From Thermoflexus hugenholtzii JAD2 (lineage in GTDB: Bacteria > Chloroflexota > UBA11872 > UBA12225), in assembly GCA_945865725.1 (NCBI GenBank), contig CAMBEO010000015.1, positions 1-41,305 on the forward strand: a stretch of DNA of 41,305 nt, in the 5' to 3' direction. The translations under genes and the position numbers were made by a program. Positions within the stretch are counted from its first letter, which is position 1; each line of letters opens with the position of its first letter. Below are positions 1,209 to 10,299 of this stretch, piece after piece. A model generated the notes under the pieces. The model saw nothing but the letters and a program-made list of their open reading frames with translations. It was not told where the DNA came from and did not search any database.

Positions 1209-1769
1209 CTACCGGCGCACCCGGTAGCGCACCTGCACGAGGCCGAGGGGCAACTCTCGCACTGCCCCGAGTTCTAGGGCCACCTCAGGCAGGGCCGCCC
1301 CGAACAGCGGGATCCCCTGCCCAAGGATGACCGGGATCGTCGTGAGCGTCAGGTCGTCGATCAGGCCGGCCTCGAGGAACGACCGCACGGTCGCGCCGCC
1401 ATCGACGTAGAGGCGGCGGTGCCCGGCGGCCCCAAGCCGGGAGACCAGGGTCGCCGGTGCCTCACCGGAGGTGGTGACCGTGCCCGCGAGGGCGGCCGGG
1501 ATCGTGGTCCCCCGGCGGGAGAGGACGTGTACCGGCATCGTGCCGTATGGCCACGCGCCGAACGTCAACGCCGTGGCAAACGTGTGTCTCCCCATCACGA
1601 TCGCGTCGACCGTCGCGATGAAGTCGCCGTAGCCGCCGTCCTCGCCGGGAGGCATGGCGGCGTTGATCTCGTTCAGCCAGTCGACCGACCCGTCCTCGCG
1701 CGCGATGAAGCCGTCGACCGAGACGGCGAGGAAGGCGGCGCACGACGGCCGCCCGGGAGCGGCGGTCAT
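1209..1769 (-). CDS. dihydrofolate reductase / RibD C-terminal family protein
   Basis: This 186-residue protein has the RibD-C/DHFR fold used by YyaP/YwjB-type proteins, NADPH-dependent reductases of mostly unknown substrate. Visible family marks are the N-terminal SVDGFIAREDGSVDWL, AIVMGRHTF near the middle, RLYVDGGATVRSFLEAGLIDDL and TTIPVILGQGIPLFG near the end. The frame extends upstream to 2141, but that region lies inside the epimerase gene. I chose the ATG at 1769 because it overlaps the upstream stop as ATGA (1766-1769), a standard translational-coupling junction. It is the second gene of a two-gene operon. Its metabolic role is unknown; true folate DHFR or RibD activity is unlikely for a stand-alone protein of this subfamily. 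Confidence 0.85.
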   Translation of the reverse strand: MTAAPGRPSCAAFLAVSVDGFIAREDGSVDWLNEINAAMPPGEDGGYGDFIATVDAIVMGRHTFATALTFGAWPYGTMPVHVLSRRGTTIPAALAGTVTTSGEAPATLVSRLGAAGHRRLYVDGGATVRSFLEAGLIDDLTLTTIPVILGQGIPLFGAALPEVALELGAVRELPLGLVQVRYRVRR

Positions 1770-2806
1770 GGCAACGGGTTGACCGTCAGTCGCATCGACC
1801 CCGCCCACGCACCGCCGGGCGGCAGGACCACCAAGCCGTTCCCCGGTACGCCCGCCTCGGCAAGGTTGAACACGTCGCCAGGGCACGTCCACGGTTCGAA
1901 GCAGAGGCCGTCGCCCCATGGCGCGACGAAGACGACGCAGTAGGGGTGGTTCGTGTCGGCATGGACCGAGGCACGAACCCCATTTGCCGGGTCGTCCACG
2001 TGCCCTGCCCACCACCCGTCCGGGGCGTCGAGGCCGGCGCGCATGCCGTTCCACGCGGCGCGGGCGATCGGCTTCCCGTCCCGCAGGTCGTGCGACGCCG
2101 CGACGGGTGCGATCGATGAGGCAGGGTTGCGTCCCGACCACGACTCGCGCGCGTCGAGGACGGCGAGGCAGTCACCCATCGCACCGTTCGGGCCGAGTGG
2201 CGTGCGCAGGTACGGGTGCGCGCCGTAGCCGAACGGCAGGTCGCCCGTGCCCGCGTTCTCGACGCGGAAGTCGAGGCGCGCGCCGGAGGCGTCGAGCGTC
2301 CAGGTCGCCTCGAGGCGGTACGGGAAGGGGTAGCCGAGGAGCGTCTCGGGGTGATCAGCGGAGGTGAAGGTCGCCGTGACAGCCGCGTGCGCACCCGTCG
2401 CCTCGCGCGCGGTCACCCGCCACGGCCGGTTGCGGACGAAGCCGTGCATGTCGTGGCGGTGCGCGCTCTCGCCGTGCGGGTCGGCCTCGTCGGGGCGGTC
2501 CCGGGGTCCGAACCGGTGCCGGGCGCCGCGGAAGGCGTACTCGCCGCGCGGTACCCGTCCCGGAAAGGGCCAGAGGAGGGGCGTCCCCCACCACGTCGGT
2601 TGCACGCGCAGGTCGTCGAGGGTTGGCGGGCCCATGATCGCATCGACCAGTCGCGGCCCGCCGGCGGTCTCGACGGGCAGGTGCAAGGCGAGGAGGTTGA
2701 ACCCGACCTCCGGCCAGACGTGCGCGGTTGCGCCGGTCGCGGTGTCGGTCAGGGCGACGAGGGAGGTCCCCTCCCGGGCGACGTCATCAATGCGGTAGCG
2801 GTTCAT
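1766..2806 (-). CDS. aldose 1-epimerase (galactose mutarotase-like) family protein
   Basis: This 346-residue protein has the galactose mutarotase-like beta-sandwich fold. The family catalyses anomer interconversion of aldoses in the cytoplasm, through an acid/base His-Glu pair. Recognisable pieces are LLWPFPGRVPRGEY (about residues 77-90), HDMHGFVRNRPW carrying the conserved His, GYGAHPYLRTPLG with the second conserved His, and GLCFEPWTCPGDVFN, whose Glu is in the position of the general base. The ATG at 2806 has no Shine-Dalgarno sequence. TACGAT lies 8 nt upstream (2815-2820, minus strand), so the mRNA may be leaderless. It is divergent from imuB, with only 71 nt between start codons. The sugar substrate is unknown. 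Confidence 0.85.
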   Translation of the reverse strand: MNRYRIDDVAREGTSLVALTDTATGATAHVWPEVGFNLLALHLPVETAGGPRLVDAIMGPPTLDDLRVQPTWWGTPLLWPFPGRVPRGEYAFRGARHRFGPRDRPDEADPHGESAHRHDMHGFVRNRPWRVTAREATGAHAAVTATFTSADHPETLLGYPFPYRLEATWTLDASGARLDFRVENAGTGDLPFGYGAHPYLRTPLGPNGAMGDCLAVLDARESWSGRNPASSIAPVAASHDLRDGKPIARAAWNGMRAGLDAPDGWWAGHVDDPANGVRASVHADTNHPYCVVFVAPWGDGLCFEPWTCPGDVFNLAEAGVPGNGLVVLPPGGAWAGSMRLTVNPLP

Positions 2807-2814
2807 CGGGCGGG

Positions 2815-2820
2815 ATCGTA
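2815..2820 (-). promoter_or_regulatory. -10 element of a leaderless promoter for the epimerase operon
   Basis: On the minus strand TACGAT is followed by 8 nt and then the ATG at 2806. No Shine-Dalgarno sequence and no -35 hexamer are apparent. It faces away from the imuB promoter. Confidence 0.45.
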
Positions 2821-2850
2821 CCCGGGCCGCGGTGCGGTGGCCGGGCGGTC

Positions 2851-2870
2851 TAGTACAAATGTTCTATACT
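2851..2870 (+). promoter_or_regulatory. LexA-type SOS box overlapping the imuB -10 element
   Basis: TAGTACAAATGTTCTA (2851-2866) is a 16-bp palindrome with one mismatched pair. Its core GTACAAATGTTC fits the Gram-positive SOS box GAACN4GTTC with one change. It overlaps a good -10 hexamer, TATACT (2865-2870), and seven bases later comes the imuB ATG (2878). A transcript from this promoter would begin at or next to the A of ATG, and no Shine-Dalgarno sequence is present. LexA binding here would directly occlude RNA polymerase. Identity as a LexA site is inferred from the motif and from the DNA-damage function of the genes behind it. Confidence 0.7.
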
Positions 2871-2877
2871 CGCCCCG

Positions 2878-5445
2878 ATGGAGACGGCAGGCGGGCGCGG
2901 CCACGGTGGTGCGGGCATGGTCGGTGGCGCCGCGGATGGAGGCCCGGGACGGCGGCGCATCGCGTGCGTCTGGTGGCCCCGCCTGGGCCTGCGGGTGGTG
3001 GCGCGGCGCGACCCCCTCGTCCGCGGGCGCGGCGCGGGACGCCCGGGCGCGACCGGCACCGGAGACACGCCGCCCGCCGTCGCCCTCTTCCGATCCGGCA
3101 CGCGGTGGCAGGAACTCCTGCAGTGCAGTGCCGACCTCGAGGCCGAGGGGATCGTCCCCGGCATGCCCCTGAAGGAGGCGCAGGCGCGCCATCCCGACGC
3201 GCGCTACCTGCCGTGCGACGACGACGCCCTCGCGGCCATCGGCGCGGCTTTCGCCACCGTCGTCGTCGCCCTTGCGCCATATAGCCCGTCGATCGAACCG
3301 GCCCTCGGCGTCGTGCCCGGCCTCTCCGGGCGTGCCGACGAGGGCGCCCCGGCCGGTGTCACCATCGATCCGGCGCGTGCCGTCGCCTTCCTGGACGTCG
3401 CCGGCCTCGAGGCGCGCCACGGGCCGGAGGCCGACCTCGCCGCGCACCTGGCATCGACGGCCGTCACCGCCGCGATGGCCGCGACCGCCCCCGCGGGGCC
3501 GGACGACCCGTGGGCAGGTGGCCCGCCGGTGGTGGCGGTCGGCATCGCGGGCGGGAAGTTCGCCGCGTGGGTCGCCGCCGCGACCGCCCTCGCCGCCGCC
3601 GGTCGGGCGGGCGCGACCGGTCGACCGGCGGCGGCGCCGCGACGCTTGCGGTGGCGCGAGATTGCCGGCCCGACCGCCCTCGACCCCGACCTGTCCACGC
3701 CCGCGCGCGGTGCGGTCGCCGCGCGTGCCCCCGGCCGGCTAGTGCCACTCCCCTTGCCGACGGCACTCCCGGCGGCGGTCGATACCGCGCGACTGCCGGC
3801 GCCGCTCCTCGTCGTGCCGTCGGGTGGCGTCGCGGCCTTCCTCGACCCCCTGCCGCTTGCCACCCTCCCCCTCGCCCTCGGCGTGCGCCGCGCCCTCGAA
3901 CGCCTCGGCATCCGCACCCTCGGGCGCTTCGCCGCCCTGCCCGCCAACGCCGTCATCGCCCGCTACGGCTCGGCGGCGCGCCACGCCCATCGCCTCGCCG
4001 GCGGTCACGACGACGAGCCGTTGCGCCCGCCCGCGCCGCCCCTCGCCGCGCGCGTCACCGTCGCCTTCGAGTGGGAGGAGACCGGTCTCGACCGCCTCAC
4101 CTTCATCCTGCGGTCACTGGCCGGGCAACTCGTCGCGCGCCTGCACGCCCTGGGGCGCCCCGATGGCGCCGATGACGCCGCCGACCGGGACCCTGAGGCC
4201 GCGACCGGCCCCGCCTTCGACCTGACGGCGCCCGACCCGCTTCCTCCCGACGACCCGTCGGCCGAGGTCGATGACCCCGACCTTGTCGCCATCGATCGAG
4301 ATCATCTTGACGGTGCCGTCACGCCCGACCGGCGCGCATGGCGGGATGATCTTGACGAGTCCGTTGATCTTGACGACGCGGCGCGGTGGGCGCGCGGCGC
4401 GATGGTGCGTCGCCTCGCCGTCTCCCGGGCCAATGACGCCCGGCGCGCCCCGGATGGCGCCCGGCCCGCGGCATCGCCCCGCCCGCGCCGCGCCGCTCCG
4501 GCCGAGGCGCCCGCGCCGTACGCCGTCGAGGCGTTGCGTGTCACCTGGTTGCTTGCCCCGCGCCGCGGCAACGACGCCCCCGAACGGCGCGAGGCCCTGT
4601 TGCGCCTTGCCGAACCGGCCGCCACCGGCCACGCCTTCGCCACCCACTTGCGGTGGCATGTCGAGGGCCTCGACCGCCTGCTTGCCGATACCCCTGACGC
4701 CACCGGGGCCGACGAGGTGGCCGTCCCCGGTGACCTGACCTACGCGCCGATGGCCGACCGGCGCCGGGGCGTCGTGGGCATCGAGGTCGAGGCCGCCGGC
4801 ATCGGCGCGCCGGTCGCCAACCAGATGGCGTTGCACCTCGTCGCCGGCCCGCGCCCGGCGTGGGCCCGCGCCGCGCGTGACCCGGAACGGCAGGCGCGCG
4901 CCGCCCGCCTCGCCGTCGCCCGCCTGCAGGCCCGGTGGGGCGAGGGTGCCGTCGGCGGCCTGCCGGACCCTGACCCGGCCGCGCGCCTCCCCGAACATGC
5001 CCGCGCGTGGGGGCCGCCGGTCGTCGCCCTGCCCGGCCTTGCCCCGGCGACCGGTCGCGCCACGCCGGCCGCGCCCCCCGCCGCCACGCGCCACGGCCTC
5101 GAGGCCGCCGCCCCCTGCTGGTTGGTTGATCCGCCCCGCCCGGTCACCTTGCGACGCCTTGCCTCGAAGCGCCTCTTCCTTGAGATCCCGGACATCCCGG
5201 ATGCCGACCCCGGCAGGCCCCTCTCAGGCATGGCGCGTGGCCCCGTCCCTGTCGGCCGCGTCACCGGCCCGTGGCATCTCGTCGACCCCACGACCCTCGT
5301 CGATGCCGAGCCGCCGCGGCGCGACTACTTCCAGGTCGAGACCGGCGACCACCGCGTCCTCCTCCTCTACCGGGACCGCGCCGCGGCGCCGGGGGTGCCC
5401 GCACCTGCGGACCCGCCATGGTTCCTGCACGGCATCTACGACTGA
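2878..5445 (+). CDS. imuB: ImuB-like inactive Y-family polymerase, mutasome subunit
   Basis: ImuB is the polymerase-like scaffold that brings DnaE2 to lesions during SOS mutagenesis. The start reads IACVWWPRLGLRVVARRDP (about residues 29-47), where active Y-family enzymes have a catalytic Asp. The second catalytic site reads LDVAGLEARHG (172-182) instead of SIDE. Both acidic motifs are therefore lost, as is usual for ImuB. A fingers/little-finger-like region extends to about 420. Then comes an unusual Asp- and Arg-rich low-complexity stretch (about 424-547), making the protein (855 residues) far longer than the common 450-550. The last 40 residues (RDYFQVET to FLHGIYD) match the DUF6504 tail common in this family. 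No clear QxxLF clamp-binding box was found. Its start is probably leaderless, behind an SOS box, and it precedes dnaE2 by 35 nt. Confidence 0.85.
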   Translation: METAGGRGHGGAGMVGGAADGGPGRRRIACVWWPRLGLRVVARRDPLVRGRGAGRPGATGTGDTPPAVALFRSGTRWQELLQCSADLEAEGIVPGMPLKEAQARHPDARYLPCDDDALAAIGAAFATVVVALAPYSPSIEPALGVVPGLSGRADEGAPAGVTIDPARAVAFLDVAGLEARHGPEADLAAHLASTAVTAAMAATAPAGPDDPWAGGPPVVAVGIAGGKFAAWVAAATALAAAGRAGATGRPAAAPRRLRWREIAGPTALDPDLSTPARGAVAARAPGRLVPLPLPTALPAAVDTARLPAPLLVVPSGGVAAFLDPLPLATLPLALGVRRALERLGIRTLGRFAALPANAVIARYGSAARHAHRLAGGHDDEPLRPPAPPLAARVTVAFEWEETGLDRLTFILRSLAGQLVARLHALGRPDGADDAADRDPEAATGPAFDLTAPDPLPPDDPSAEVDDPDLVAIDRDHLDGAVTPDRRAWRDDLDESVDLDDAARWARGAMVRRLAVSRANDARRAPDGARPAASPRPRRAAPAEAPAPYAVEALRVTWLLAPRRGNDAPERREALLRLAEPAATGHAFATHLRWHVEGLDRLLADTPDATGADEVAVPGDLTYAPMADRRRGVVGIEVEAAGIGAPVANQMALHLVAGPRPAWARAARDPERQARAARLAVARLQARWGEGAVGGLPDPDPAARLPEHARAWGPPVVALPGLAPATGRATPAAPPAATRHGLEAAAPCWLVDPPRPVTLRRLASKRLFLEIPDIPDADPGRPLSGMARGPVPVGRVTGPWHLVDPTTLVDAEPPRRDYFQVETGDHRVLLLYRDRAAAPGVPAPADPPWFLHGIYD

Positions 5446-5480
5446 CCGGTTCGCGGCCGCGGCCGTGCGAGGGATGCCCG

Positions 5481-8400
5481 ATGGAGTACGCCGAACTTCA
5501 CGCCCACACCAACTTCTCGTTCCTCGACGGGGCAAGCGACCCGGAGGCGATGGCCGAGACGGCCGCGCGCCTGGGGTTGCGCGCCCTCGCCATCACTGAC
5601 CACGACAGTCTCTCGGGGATCGTGCGCTTCGGCGCCGCCGCGCAGGCGCACGGCATCCACCCGATCACCGGCATCGAGTTGACGGTGGAACCGCCCGGCA
5701 CGCCCGCGCCCGGCCTGCCCGGCTTCGACCGCGTGCCGCCCGGCGTGGACGGTGGTGACCCCATGCCGGAGGTCGCCCACCTCACCCTGCTTGCCGAGGA
5801 CCTTGGCGGCTACCGCAACCTGTGCGCCCTCCTCACCGAGGCGTACCGCCACGGCGGCCTCGACGCGCCGCGCGTGCCGTGGGAGGTCCTCGCGCGCCAC
5901 GCCGGCGGCCTCGTCGCCCTCTCGGGGTGCGCCGACGGCGAGGTCCCGCGCGCCCTCGCCCGCGGTGGCCCGGAGGCGGCCTTCCGCGTCGCCGCGCGCT
6001 ACCGCGAGGCCTTCGGCCGCGACCGCTTCGCCATCGAGTTGCACCGCCATGGCCTGCCCGCCGACGGTCCGCGCAATGCCGGCCTGCAGGCGGTCGCTGC
6101 GCGCCTCGACCTCGCCTGCGTCGCCACCCAGGACGCGCACTACCACGACGCCACGCGGGCGATGTTGCACCACGTCGTGACCTGCATTCGCCACGGGACG
6201 ACCCTTGCCGAGGCGGGGGCGCGCCTGCGCCCGAACGACGAGTACCGCCTGAAATCGGGAGCCGAAATGGCGCGCCGCTTCCGGGACGAGTGCGCCCGCG
6301 CCGGGTCACCCGCGCGCGACCCCCTGCGCGCCACCCTCGCCATCGCCGAACGGTGCGCCTTCACCCTCCACGACCTGCGCTACGAGTTCCCCCGCCCGCG
6401 CCTGCCCCACGGCGAGTCGGCCCTCAGCTTCCTCACCCGCCTCGTTGAGGCAGGCAAGACCGTCTTCTATCCCGATGCCTCCGACGAGGTCGGCGCGCGC
6501 CTCGCGCACGAGCTGGACATCGTCGACCAACTCGGCCTCGCGGGCTACCTCCTCGTCTTCAAGGAGATCGTCGACTGGAGCCAGTCGCAGGGGATCCTCG
6601 TGAGCATGCGCGGGTCGGCCCCCGCCTCGGCGATGTTGCACTGCATGGGGTTGTGCCCCATCGATCCCCTCGAGCACGGCCTGCTATTCGAGCGCTTCTG
6701 TTCGCCCGAGCGGCGCGAGTACCCCGACATCGACCTCGACTTCCCGCACGAGCGGCGCGAGGAGGTGATCCAGCACATTTACGAGAAGTACGGGCGCACG
6801 CACGCCGCGATGGTCTGCGAGGTGATCAGCTACCGGTCGCGCAGCGCCGTGCGCGACGTGGCGAAGGTGCTTGGCCTGCCGGCGGCGCGCGCGCAACGCC
6901 TGGCCGACCTCCTCGACTCCCGCGACGCCGACCCCCTGGCGCGCCTCGAGGCCGAGGGGATCCGCGGGCGCCTCGCCGACCTCCTCGTCGACCTGACGCG
7001 CCAGCTCGCGGATAGCCCGCGCCACCTCTCGATTCATGTCGGCGGCATGGTCATCTCGTCCGAGCCCCTCAACCACGTCACCCCCGTCCTGCCCGCCCGC
7101 ATGCCCGCGCGCACCGTCCTGCCGTGGGACAAGGACGACCTGACGATCCTTGCCGAGACCTTCGACGTCCAGCTGATCAAGATGGACCTGCTGTCGCTGG
7201 GGATGCTGTCGGCCATCGGGCGGTGCTTCGACCACGTGGCCGACCTGACGGGCGAGCGCCTGGACCTGCACGGCTTCCGCTACGACCCCGGCGTCTACGA
7301 CCAGTTGTGCGCCGCCGACACGATCGGCCTCTTTCAGGTGGAGTCGCGCGCGCAGCAGTCGTTCCTGCCGCGCCTGCGCCCGCGCAACCTGGCCGACACC
7401 GCCATCTCGGTGGGGGCGATCCGTCCCGGGCCGGGGGCGGCGCGCGCGGGCGAGCACATCGTGCGCCGCCGCCAGGGGCGCGAACCCATCACCTACCCGG
7501 CGCGCGAGCTGATCCCTGCCCTGCGCGAGACCTACGGCGTCCTCCTCTGGCAGGAGCAGTGCATCCAGGTGGCGGTGATCGCCGCCGGCTACACGCCCGG
7601 CGAGGCCGACCAGTTGCGCCGCGCGATGAGCCACAAGCGGTCGGAGGAGCGGATGCACGAGGTCTGCGCCGAGATGGTCGACCGCATGACCGCGCGCGGC
7701 TACGACGCAAGCACGGCCGAGGCGGTGCGCGACATGGTCGTCGGCTTCGCCGGCTACGGCTTCCCGCGGGCGCACGCCTACCCCTTCGCGCACCTCGCCC
7801 TGATCTCGGCGACGCTGCGCCTGCGCTACCCCGAGGCCTACTACGCCGCCCTGTTGAACTGCCAGCCGATGGGCTTCTACGCCCCCCACACCCTGTTGTG
7901 GGACGCCCACCGGCACGGCGTGCGCGTGTTGCCGGTGCACGTCAACTGCAGCGCGTGGGAGTCGACGCTGGAACCCCTGCCTCCTCCCGAGGCACCTGCC
8001 CCCCTCGATTCCTCTCCCGCGAAGCGGGGTGGTGGTGGTGCTTCCCTCTCCCGCCGCAGCGGGGGAGGGACTGAGGGTGGGGGTTGTCTCCCGCGAAGCG
8101 GCGTGGAGACGCTGCCTACTCCCCTCTCCCGCGAAGCGGGGGAGGGGCAGGGGGTGGGGGTGCGTCCCGCCCCGGCCGTCGCCATCCGCCTCGGGATGTG
8201 CGAGGTGCACGGCCTCGGCCCGGCGGCGCGCGAGATCTTCGAGGGCGCCCGTGCCGCCGGACCCTTCCGGTCGCTGGCCGACCTGGTGGTGCGCACCGGG
8301 TTCGACCGCGACCGCCTCGAGAGCCTCGCCGAGGTTGGCGCCCTCCTCGGCCTGCCCGCCGGCGCCGCCACCGGGCGTGCCGGACCGGGGCGCGACCGGC

Positions 8401-8936
8401 GCGCCGCCGCGTGGGTGACCGGCGAACTCGCGGGCCTGGGGCCGGCGTACCTGCCGGGCCTTGCCGAGCAACTGGTGACGGACCCGGCCCTCGAGGCGAT
8501 GACGGCGTGGGAGGAGGTGCAGGCCGAGTACCGGACGCTTGGCTACGCGCCGAACCGGCACGCGGTGTCGTGGTTGCGCCCGGCCCTCGAGGGGCAGGGA
8601 GCGGTGACGGCGACCGGCCTGGTGCGCCAGCGGCACGGGCGGGTGGCGCGGGCGGGTGGCCTGGTGATCTGCCGTCAGCGCCCGGAGACGGCGGGGGGCG
8701 TGCTGTTCCTGACGGTCGAAGACGAGACGGGGCTGTTCAACGCGATCGTGCAGGCACCAGCCTACGAGCGTCTACGGCGCGTGTTGCGCGGCGAGGGGTT
8801 GGTGGTGCTAGAGGGGGCGGTGCAACACCGCGACAACACGACGCACCTGATGGTGCGCCAGGCGTGGGCGTTGCGCCCCGGCGGGACGATCGCCGTGCCC
8901 GCCCCGGTGGGGGTGCGCAGCCACGACTTCCGGTGA
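5481..8936 (+). CDS. dnaE2: error-prone DNA polymerase III alpha subunit DnaE2
   Basis: This 1151-residue C-family polymerase performs error-prone synthesis past lesions together with ImuB. It has an N-terminal PHP domain (HAHTNFSFLDG at residues 6-16, then ITDHDS), palm metal ligands in PDIDLDF (Asp416, Asp418) and IKMDLLSLG (Asp569), and a C-terminal OB fold with LVICRQRPETAGGVLFLTVEDETG. The polymerase site therefore looks intact. The ATG at 5481 has CGAGGG at 5468-5473. The frame is open 70 codons further upstream, but those lie in imuB. It is longer than typical DnaE2 (about 1030-1080) because of a roughly 50-residue low-complexity insert (about residues 844-895) encoded by palindromic repeats, placed between SAWESTLE and the conserved AIRLGMCEVHGLG. 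It shares a transcript with imuB. Confidence 0.93.
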   Translation: MEYAELHAHTNFSFLDGASDPEAMAETAARLGLRALAITDHDSLSGIVRFGAAAQAHGIHPITGIELTVEPPGTPAPGLPGFDRVPPGVDGGDPMPEVAHLTLLAEDLGGYRNLCALLTEAYRHGGLDAPRVPWEVLARHAGGLVALSGCADGEVPRALARGGPEAAFRVAARYREAFGRDRFAIELHRHGLPADGPRNAGLQAVAARLDLACVATQDAHYHDATRAMLHHVVTCIRHGTTLAEAGARLRPNDEYRLKSGAEMARRFRDECARAGSPARDPLRATLAIAERCAFTLHDLRYEFPRPRLPHGESALSFLTRLVEAGKTVFYPDASDEVGARLAHELDIVDQLGLAGYLLVFKEIVDWSQSQGILVSMRGSAPASAMLHCMGLCPIDPLEHGLLFERFCSPERREYPDIDLDFPHERREEVIQHIYEKYGRTHAAMVCEVISYRSRSAVRDVAKVLGLPAARAQRLADLLDSRDADPLARLEAEGIRGRLADLLVDLTRQLADSPRHLSIHVGGMVISSEPLNHVTPVLPARMPARTVLPWDKDDLTILAETFDVQLIKMDLLSLGMLSAIGRCFDHVADLTGERLDLHGFRYDPGVYDQLCAADTIGLFQVESRAQQSFLPRLRPRNLADTAISVGAIRPGPGAARAGEHIVRRRQGREPITYPARELIPALRETYGVLLWQEQCIQVAVIAAGYTPGEADQLRRAMSHKRSEERMHEVCAEMVDRMTARGYDASTAEAVRDMVVGFAGYGFPRAHAYPFAHLALISATLRLRYPEAYYAALLNCQPMGFYAPHTLLWDAHRHGVRVLPVHVNCSAWESTLEPLPPPEAPAPLDSSPAKRGGGGASLSRRSGGGTEGGGCLPRSGVETLPTPLSREAGEGQGVGVRPAPAVAIRLGMCEVHGLGPAAREIFEGARAAGPFRSLADLVVRTGFDRDRLESLAEVGALLGLPAGAATGRAGPGRDRRAAAWVTGELAGLGPAYLPGLAEQLVTDPALEAMTAWEEVQAEYRTLGYAPNRHAVSWLRPALEGQGAVTATGLVRQRHGRVARAGGLVICRQRPETAGGVLFLTVEDETGLFNAIVQAPAYERLRRVLRGEGLVVLEGAVQHRDNTTHLMVRQAWALRPGGTIAVPAPVGVRSHDFR
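8011..8164 (+). repeat. cluster of GC-rich palindromic repeats inside dnaE2
   Basis: Four hairpin units of the form CCCTCTCCCGC-gaa-GCGGGGGAGGG lie in tandem at about 8011-8029, 8044-8070, 8086-8110 (degenerate) and 8121-8147. Two of them are followed by G-rich tails. 8061-8083 and 8138-8160 each contain four G-runs of at least three, a G-quadruplex-capable pattern on the coding strand. The reading frame is kept throughout. Related units occur at 33501-33526, 34779-34810 and 38573-38604. Confidence 0.8.
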
Positions 8937-8995: not shown

Positions 8996-10159
8996 CTACG
9001 CCAGTCGCGCCGTCGCCCCCTCGCCCTCCCCTTCCACCGCTACCAACCCGTCGCGTGCGAGGTCGCCAAGCAAGCCAAGCAACCACGCGCGGCGCGCCAC
9101 CGCCTCGTACGTCGGGTCCACCGACGGCCCGAGGGCGTCCACCGACAGCGTCGCGCCCGGCGGCAACGCGCGCAGGGCCGCGACCGCGCGACCGCGGAAC
9201 CACCGGCGCGACCCCTCGAACCGTTCCGGTGCCCGCCGCGCCGGGTCCGGCCGGTAGGTCGCGCGCGTCTCCGCGACCCGGGCCAGGCCTTCCATGCCCG
9301 GCAGTGCCATCGGCCCGGCACCGGCAGGCGTCGCCTCCACCGCACTCACGGCGGCGCACCAGTCGCGTACCGGACACGCCCCGCATCGCGGCGCCCGCGC
9401 CACGCAGGTCGTCGCCCCCAGGTCCATCAGGGCCTGGTTCCAGTCGTACACGTCCGCGTCGTCCGGCAACGCGGCGCGCGCCATCGCCCACCCGTGCCGG
9501 TCGGCCGGTACCCCCGGCGCCGGCGCGATCCGGAACACTCGGTCAAGCACGCGCCCCACGTTCGTGTCAAGCACCGCTTCGGGCAGGCCGAACGCGAAGC
9601 ACGCGATCGCGCCGGCGGTGTACGGCCCGATGCCCGGCAACGCGCGCAGCGCCTCGACCGACGCCGGAAGCGTCCCGCCGCTGGCCTCGACCACCGTCCG
9701 CGCGACCTCGTGCAACGCCACGGCGCGCCGGTTGTAGCCAAGCCCCGCCCACGCCCGGATCACGTCGGCGCGCGGCGCCGTCGCGAGGTCGCGCAACGTC
9801 GGGAAGGACGCCAGGAATGCCTCCCACTTCGGGCGCACGCGGTCGACCTGGGTCTGTTGCAGCATCGCCTCGGCCACGAGGATGGCGTACGGGTCGCGCG
9901 TGCGCCGCCACGGCAGGTCGCGCCCCTCCCGCCGGTACCACCCGAGGATCGCCGCCTGCACCGCCCCTGCCTTGGCCCCGGGCAGGCGAACCGTCGCGGT
10001 CGACGCAACCCGTCCCCGGCGCGCCGGGGCACCGGGCGCGTGGCCGGCGTCCGTCGCTTCCGGTGATGGCTTGCCTCGTGACGGGACCGGGTCGTCGGCC
10101 TTGGCGGGCGCCAGAGGTACCGGGACGTCGTCGGTGGAAGCATCGATGAAGCGCGGCAT
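8996..10159 (-). CDS. mutY: A/G-specific adenine DNA glycosylase MutY
   Basis: MutY removes adenine mispaired with 8-oxoguanine in base excision repair. The catalytic Glu97 lies in AEAMLQQTQV. A helix-hairpin-helix LPGIGPYTAGAIACFAFG (174-191) is followed by Asp198 in VLDTNVGRV. The [4Fe-4S] loop is Cys252-x6-Cys259-x2-Cys262-x5-Cys268, all present. The C-terminal domain is short and lacks an obvious full NUDIX-like 8-oxoG recognition domain. A roughly 65-residue Ala/Pro-rich N-terminal extension precedes the catalytic domain. The ATG at 10159 is supported by TAGAAT 6 nt upstream and no Shine-Dalgarno sequence, the leaderless pattern seen elsewhere here. An internal start without the extension cannot be excluded. 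It is convergent with dnaE2, 59 nt apart. Confidence 0.93.
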   Translation of the reverse strand: MPRFIDASTDDVPVPLAPAKADDPVPSRGKPSPEATDAGHAPGAPARRGRVASTATVRLPGAKAGAVQAAILGWYRREGRDLPWRRTRDPYAILVAEAMLQQTQVDRVRPKWEAFLASFPTLRDLATAPRADVIRAWAGLGYNRRAVALHEVARTVVEASGGTLPASVEALRALPGIGPYTAGAIACFAFGLPEAVLDTNVGRVLDRVFRIAPAPGVPADRHGWAMARAALPDDADVYDWNQALMDLGATTCVARAPRCGACPVRDWCAAVSAVEATPAGAGPMALPGMEGLARVAETRATYRPDPARRAPERFEGSRRWFRGRAVAALRALPPGATLSVDALGPSVDPTYEAVARRAWLLGLLGDLARDGLVAVEGEGEGATARLA

Positions 10160-10165
10160 CGGGGG

Positions 10166-10171
10166 ATTCTA
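10166..10171 (-). promoter_or_regulatory. -10 element of a leaderless promoter for mutY
   Basis: TAGAAT on the minus strand (five of six bases match TATAAT) is followed by CCCCCG and the ATG at 10159. There is no ribosome-binding site and no convincing -35. This supports the long form of MutY with its N-terminal extension. Confidence 0.5.
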
Positions 10172-10299
10172 GGGAAGCGCCCGGTGCACGCCCCACATTG
10201 CGTGGTGCCGGGACGGCGCCCCGAGCGCCGCCGCGTATCCTGTCCTGTGTCCGTGCGCCGGGTTGCCCGCGCGCGTCCCCGATGGAGCCCCGTCCCCTG

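Follow-up and report, generated by a model that had tools for sequence, protein, structure and literature searches.

Two reports describe split mutagenesis cassettes that carry LexA boxes (PMC3323433, PMC8072749), and the latter also presents the ImuB family as an inactive Y-family partner of the polymerase. In Mycobacterium tuberculosis, the translation start of lexA is also its transcription start, making the gene leaderless (PMC2897130), and recX is leaderless as well, with its promoter lying inside recA (PMC3062782). Leaderless genes led by a TANNNT motif account for 4–6% of genes in Chloroflexi where they have been detected (PMC3160421), and of the LexA sites of Streptomyces venezuelae, a GTAC box at dnaE2 belongs to the weaker ones (PMC9380542). 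Full-text searches of a library that lacks most subscription papers yielded, in the titles, abstracts and passages that we read, no report of leaderless mutasome genes (imuA, imuB, dnaE2). Here we describe an imuB gene whose promoter is probably compact, LexA-repressed and leaderless, and compare it with these systems.

The window, by which we mean the whole stretch of 41,305 nucleotides analysed, is contig C15 of the source genome (G000), a 2.30-Mb assembly in 106 contigs that is 85% complete. Genome counts cover targeted searches, 300 kb of stretches from the same genome and the window itself. On the plus strand, imuB (2878–5445), encoding a divergent Y-family homologue that would serve as a mutasome accessory protein, is followed by dnaE2 (5481–8936), an arrangement kept in the family. 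The dnaE2 product matches the NCBIfam model of error-prone DNA polymerases, NF004225, with 1023.9 bits (cut-off 939), and the gene carries its own Shine-Dalgarno sequence, GAGGGA (5469–5474), 6 nt before its ATG at 5481. The assignment of ImuB draws on this neighbour and on weak Y-family matches, to PF00817 (E=0.0069, below cut-off) and to Pol IV models, which align with part of the protein at E-values down to 1.4e-07. A sequence-only reading of this DNA had taken ImuB for the translesion polymerase itself; as ImuB would be the inactive Y-family partner, that role falls to DnaE2. A scan of contigs with ImuB alone as query found no relatives. In a DnaE2 alignment, the nearest named relatives were uncultured Chloroflexota bins, the top one being LaPlata-5m-a_bin-061 at 87% identity, and the names of the relatives' bins suggest a freshwater lineage. 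Positions 7990–8160 of dnaE2 hold short repeats (CTCTCCCGCGAAGCGGGG and similar) that form a low-complexity in-frame insertion; stretches like these also occur in a queA-like frame of L020.

The imuB gene is preceded directly by its promoter region, TAGTACAAATGTTCTATACTCGCCCCG-ATG. A predicted LexA operator, an SOS box of GAAC-N4-GTTC type (TAGTACAAATGTTCTA), occupies 2851–2866 of the plus strand, and its last two bases are the first two of a -10 element, TATACT (2865–2870). The spacer CGCCCCG (2871–2877) leads from there to the ATG at 2878, in agreement with the sequence-only reading, which had a palindrome overlapping TATACT with the imuB ATG 7 nt further on. In the operator, 5/6 arm pairs are complementary and the left half-site is GTAC, not GAAC. 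An in-frame TAG at 2851, within the operator, makes an upstream start impossible, and ATG 2878 is the first in-frame start after it; together with TATACT 7 nt away, this is the layout of a leaderless gene. We predict that transcription starts at the A of this ATG, or one base upstream. In the source genome, another ATG follows in frame at 2917. A scan of the imuB promoter region for a sigma-70 -35/-10 pair found none, nor any -35 match. In GC-rich bacteria, promoters of this kind often lack a -35 element.

The arrangement is conserved in a second genus of the family, g3, represented by G003, G006 and G007, in all of which the 20-bp stretch TAGTACAAATGTTCTATACT precedes imuB. G000 and G006 agree at every one of these 20 bp (100% identity), whereas identity is 29% over 118 bp of upstream flank and 42% on the downstream side. 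Across the four species of the two genera, TATACT lies 7 nt from the imuB ATG, and 27 nt before that ATG the operator's TAG forms an in-frame stop. The leaderless-spaced ATG is the only ATG, GTG or TTG before the conserved RIACVW in G003 and G006; G007 has an extra GTG directly before the imuB ATG. G000 and G006 share codons 6–9 (GRGH, GGGCGCGGCCAC) without a difference and at the same distance from the ATG, in proteins where the G000 ImuB is 49–51% identical to its g3 relatives. The GTAC half-site recurs at imuB in five genomes and at recX in two.

Since the upstream flank in g3 is unrelated, the module is tied to imuB rather than to its divergent neighbour, an aldose 1-epimerase gene (1766–2806, minus strand; PF01263), which for the same reason lies outside the unit. 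The sequence-only reading had also placed a divergent leaderless promoter here. A -10-like TACGAT (2815–2820, minus strand) is indeed found 8 nt before the epimerase ATG at 2806; in 341 kb, 21 TANNNT-start pairs of this sort occur, this one included, and it shows no sign of conservation. We considered an action of the box on the epimerase gene and rejected it, as the box lies about 45–60 bp upstream of the predicted epimerase start and the g3 operator has an unrelated flank.

Two further family members differ at the start codon. G002 keeps the operator and TATACT, with an ATG 6 nt on that opens a 33-codon frame starting MDESGLGRG, like the imuB N-terminus; imuB there probably starts at a later GTG behind AGGAGG. 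This short frame (L092, around 5930–6090) overlaps the Shine-Dalgarno sequence and GTG of imuB and could encode a leaderless upstream peptide or be what is left of the old start. In G005, 35 nt separate TATACT from the imuB ATG. Because the starts in G002 and G005 sit further downstream, the leaderless imuB start is not universal in the family; in these two genomes it was apparently replaced, or never arose. In other families of the class, no operators were found within 400 bp of ImuB-like frames. In a genome from another family of the phylum (L059), TAGAACATATGTTCTA lies 291 bp upstream of an ImuB-like open frame.

The fusion is repeated elsewhere in the source genome. With at most one mismatch, GNACNNNNGTTCTATACT has four sites in G000, all before genes, against 0 for the reversed control, and it has sites in 8/9 family genomes. 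The GTTCTATACT operator/-10 fusion thus seen at imuB also occurs at an imuA-like gene, at recX and at another SOS gene. By spacing, three of the four GNACNNNNGTTCTATACT sites are leaderless: imuB at 7 nt, the imuA-like gene at 6 nt (with a GTG) and recX at 6 nt. The fourth, on contig C2, has 18 nt to the start and a Shine-Dalgarno sequence, GGAGGG. The 6-nt spacing of the imuA-like gene is found in G000, G001, G003, G006 and G007. At recX, the start codon follows TATACT after 6 nt (G000) or 7 nt (G001); RecX starts MAITRRP in both genomes, and the first 25 codons differ at 9 synonymous versus 4 non-synonymous positions, from codon 2 on. This conservation as coding sequence, which holds from codon 1, means that the protein very probably starts at the promoter-adjacent codon. 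The regulon is mixed, since ordinary leaders precede recA, lexA and one further SOS gene: at recA, 22 nt with AGGAGGG separate TATGCT from the ATG, and at lexA 45 nt separate the nearer box from the GTG. At recX, the LexA-type boxes are in tandem, GAACGTGCGTTC then GTACGTATGTTC in G000 (L064) and GAACGCCCGTTC then GTACGAATGTTC in G001 (L100).

The imuA-like protein of the source genome (P0001) gave no match to family models. Its G005 homologue has the sole RecA match in the set, a weak one (E=0.001) in the Walker A region; comparison with RecA by hhalign gave a probability of 4%, and a search of the family profile against solved structures returned nothing useful. In G002 and G005, the gene shares a contig with imuB.

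Further boxes were seen outside these genes. A sigma-70 family factor gene (L018:892–1632, minus strand; TIGR02937, 70.5 bits) has a GAACAAATGTTC box near its start, with the operator at L018:1629, and this box is present in two species of the genus (L018; L121 of G001). The gene could encode a LexA-controlled alternative sigma factor. Also in two species, the gene of a MQREFIITRQGRDFVLYAGLLDAAHRDGLSAIRT... protein (L060:604–1482, minus strand; L107:1538–2395, plus strand) combines a LexA box fused to TATACT with a Shine-Dalgarno leader; the protein has conserved N-terminal and C-terminal blocks and no clear Pfam family. A strong box, GAACGTCTGTTC, overlaps a second box before a gene at L028:186, and another, TAGAACTAATGTTCTA, precedes a TSCPD-domain gene at L021:1552; these boxes suggest further SOS genes.

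We weighed three other readings of the imuB box. Palindromic 16-mers are frequent as such, and a chance match in a GC-rich intergenic region draws on this: of the about 41,290 16-mers that the window contains, 511 reach 5/6 arm pairs or more. Palindromy alone was therefore dropped as evidence for the imuB box, as those 511 do equally well. The strict pattern TAGNACNNNNGTNCTA is more selective, with one occurrence in the window versus 0.05 expected in shuffles. We then scored positions with a symmetric matrix built from three boxes that were found through lexA and recA homology, not by pattern: two at the genome's own lexA gene (C60; ACGAACATTCGTCCGA and ACGAACATCTGTTCCG) and one at its recA (C12; TAGAACAAATGTCCGG, directly before TATGCT). 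The imuB site ranked second of 340,505 positions in 341 kb, behind the C2 site, which is likewise fused to TATACT before another gene; with a matrix from all other boxes, it ranked first of 341,065. Set beside this rank, the recurrence of the box in eight of nine family genomes and the 20/20 bp kept next to an upstream flank at 29% identity, chance has next to no claim on the imuB box, and the conservation already refutes it. The imperfect half-site might instead point to a different repressor with a GAAC-N4-GTTC-like site. We regard this as highly improbable, because boxes alike precede the genome's own lexA, recA, recX and mutasome genes, and in Gram-positive bacteria the accepted LexA motif is GAAC-N4-GTTC (PMC3323433). 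The genome encodes a LexA that scores 163.5 bits with TIGR00498, over the cut-off, and has both the DNA-binding (PF01726) and S24 peptidase (PF00717) domains. The sequence-only reading had staked its case on the palindrome being present at lexA and recA of the same genome; since lexA (two copies) and recA (one) carry the box type of imuB, it keeps its footing. No uvrA was found above cut-off in the 85% complete assembly.

The third reading accepts a LexA operator and moves the promoter: the main transcript would start further upstream, LexA would act as a roadblock, and imuB would have a short ordinary leader or start at ATG 2917. It is consistent with the lack of a -35 element, with the presence of that in-frame ATG in G000, and with the downstream imuB starts of G005 (35 nt) and, probably, of G002 (the GTG with AGGAGG). 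Against it, the only ATG, GTG or TTG between the operator stop and the conserved domain in G003 and G006 is the one 7 nt after TATACT, and fusions with 6–7 nt spacing recur at the imuA-like gene and recX. The genome-wide distribution of TANNNT, which peaks at precisely this spacing, argues in the same direction. Over 341 kb, in which 198 genes were called, TANNNT stands before candidate starts 10 times at 6 nt and 8 times at 7 nt, versus about 2 at other distances, so that 18 are observed at 6–7 nt where about 4 are expected. Up to about 9% of the genes sampled (18/198, before background subtraction) look leaderless. Given this peak, leaderless starts form an ordinary minority class, which the SOS genes use and did not invent. 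We consider an upstream promoter with a LexA roadblock unlikely. A MutY-like glycosylase gene in the window (8996–10159, minus strand) also looks leaderless, with TAGAAT, 6 nt and ATG at 10159–10180.

We thus favour, with good though not complete confidence, the reading of the imuB unit as a compact LexA-repressed leaderless promoter. Sequence and conservation show the boxes, the TATACT fusion, the spacing and the recX coding start; that LexA binds, where transcription begins, that damage induces imuB and that its translation is leaderless, we infer. The proposal of an SOS operator on a leaderless promoter, made in the sequence-only reading, gains from the matching boxes at lexA and recA and from the box, -10 and ATG spacing kept in relatives. 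In the undamaged cell, a LexA dimer on 2851–2866 would cover the first bases of TATACT and, by covering the start of the -10 element, bar the sigma factor from it. DNA damage would activate RecA and bring about LexA self-cleavage, whereupon RNA polymerase would initiate on the first base of the imuB ATG or no more than one base away. The resulting imuB mRNA would lack a leader, and ribosomes would begin at its 5′ AUG. Translation of dnaE2 from the same transcript would use its own Shine-Dalgarno sequence; given this GAGGGA, the leaderless start would gate ImuB directly and DnaE2 at most via coupling. An equal operator/-10/start fusion would drive the imuA-like gene and recX, and recA, lexA and at least one further SOS gene have boxes of this type with ordinary leaders. 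The GTAC half-site probably makes the imuB operator a weaker site, and by analogy with the weaker GTAC box at S. venezuelae dnaE2, imuB and recX may be easier to derepress.

The sequence-only reading went further and tied mutagenesis to the ability of the ribosome to start on a 5′ AUG. That this ability limits mutagenesis is pure conjecture, because up to about 9% of the sampled genes look leaderless. We regard as unlikely a scheme in which leaderless initiation adds a second gate, and does so selectively for the arm of the SOS response that is mutagenic and restrains RecA (imuA, imuB, recX), with Shine-Dalgarno leaders retained on the protective arm (recA, lexA). Were it true, damage and the cell's translation state (initiation-factor ratio, 70S availability) would both shift the balance of error-prone and error-free repair.

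At imuB, operator, promoter and start codon lie within about 30 bp, conserved amid flank turnover and repeated at three damage-response genes. If confirmed, the arrangement would make the tuning of mutagenesis genes by ribosome start mode as well as by LexA testable, and would add an uncultivated Chloroflexota family to the actinobacteria in which leaderless transcription under LexA control is known. Compared with the known imuA-imuB-dnaE2 cassette, the locus shares an imuB-dnaE2 pair with a LexA-type operator and, as in split cassettes, an imuA-like gene under its own operator; it differs in that the imuA-like and imuB promoters are fused to start codons and in that the imuA-like protein is too divergent for family models. 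M. tuberculosis lexA is likewise a leaderless SOS gene, in a bacterium with LexA of the GAAC-N4-GTTC type, whereas here, in another phylum, leaders precede lexA and recA, and the genes predicted to be leaderless are the imuA-like one, imuB and recX. The recX transcript is predicted to begin at its own ATG, as in M. tuberculosis; unlike there, recX stands alone with tandem LexA-type boxes. As in TANNNT-led bacterial genes (PMC3160421), the -10 element lies about 12 bp before the start codon, but here such genes reach up to about 9% (before background subtraction) and the imuB -10 overlaps a repressor operator. The S. venezuelae dnaE2 site has a LexA-bound GTAC-type half-site (TCGTACGTACGTTC) like those in the imuB and recX boxes; it is listed at -68 (PMC9380542) and not fused to the start codon. 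LexA control and leaderless SOS genes are therefore each known elsewhere, and their repeated joint use on imuA, imuB and recX, as predicted here, appears to be new.
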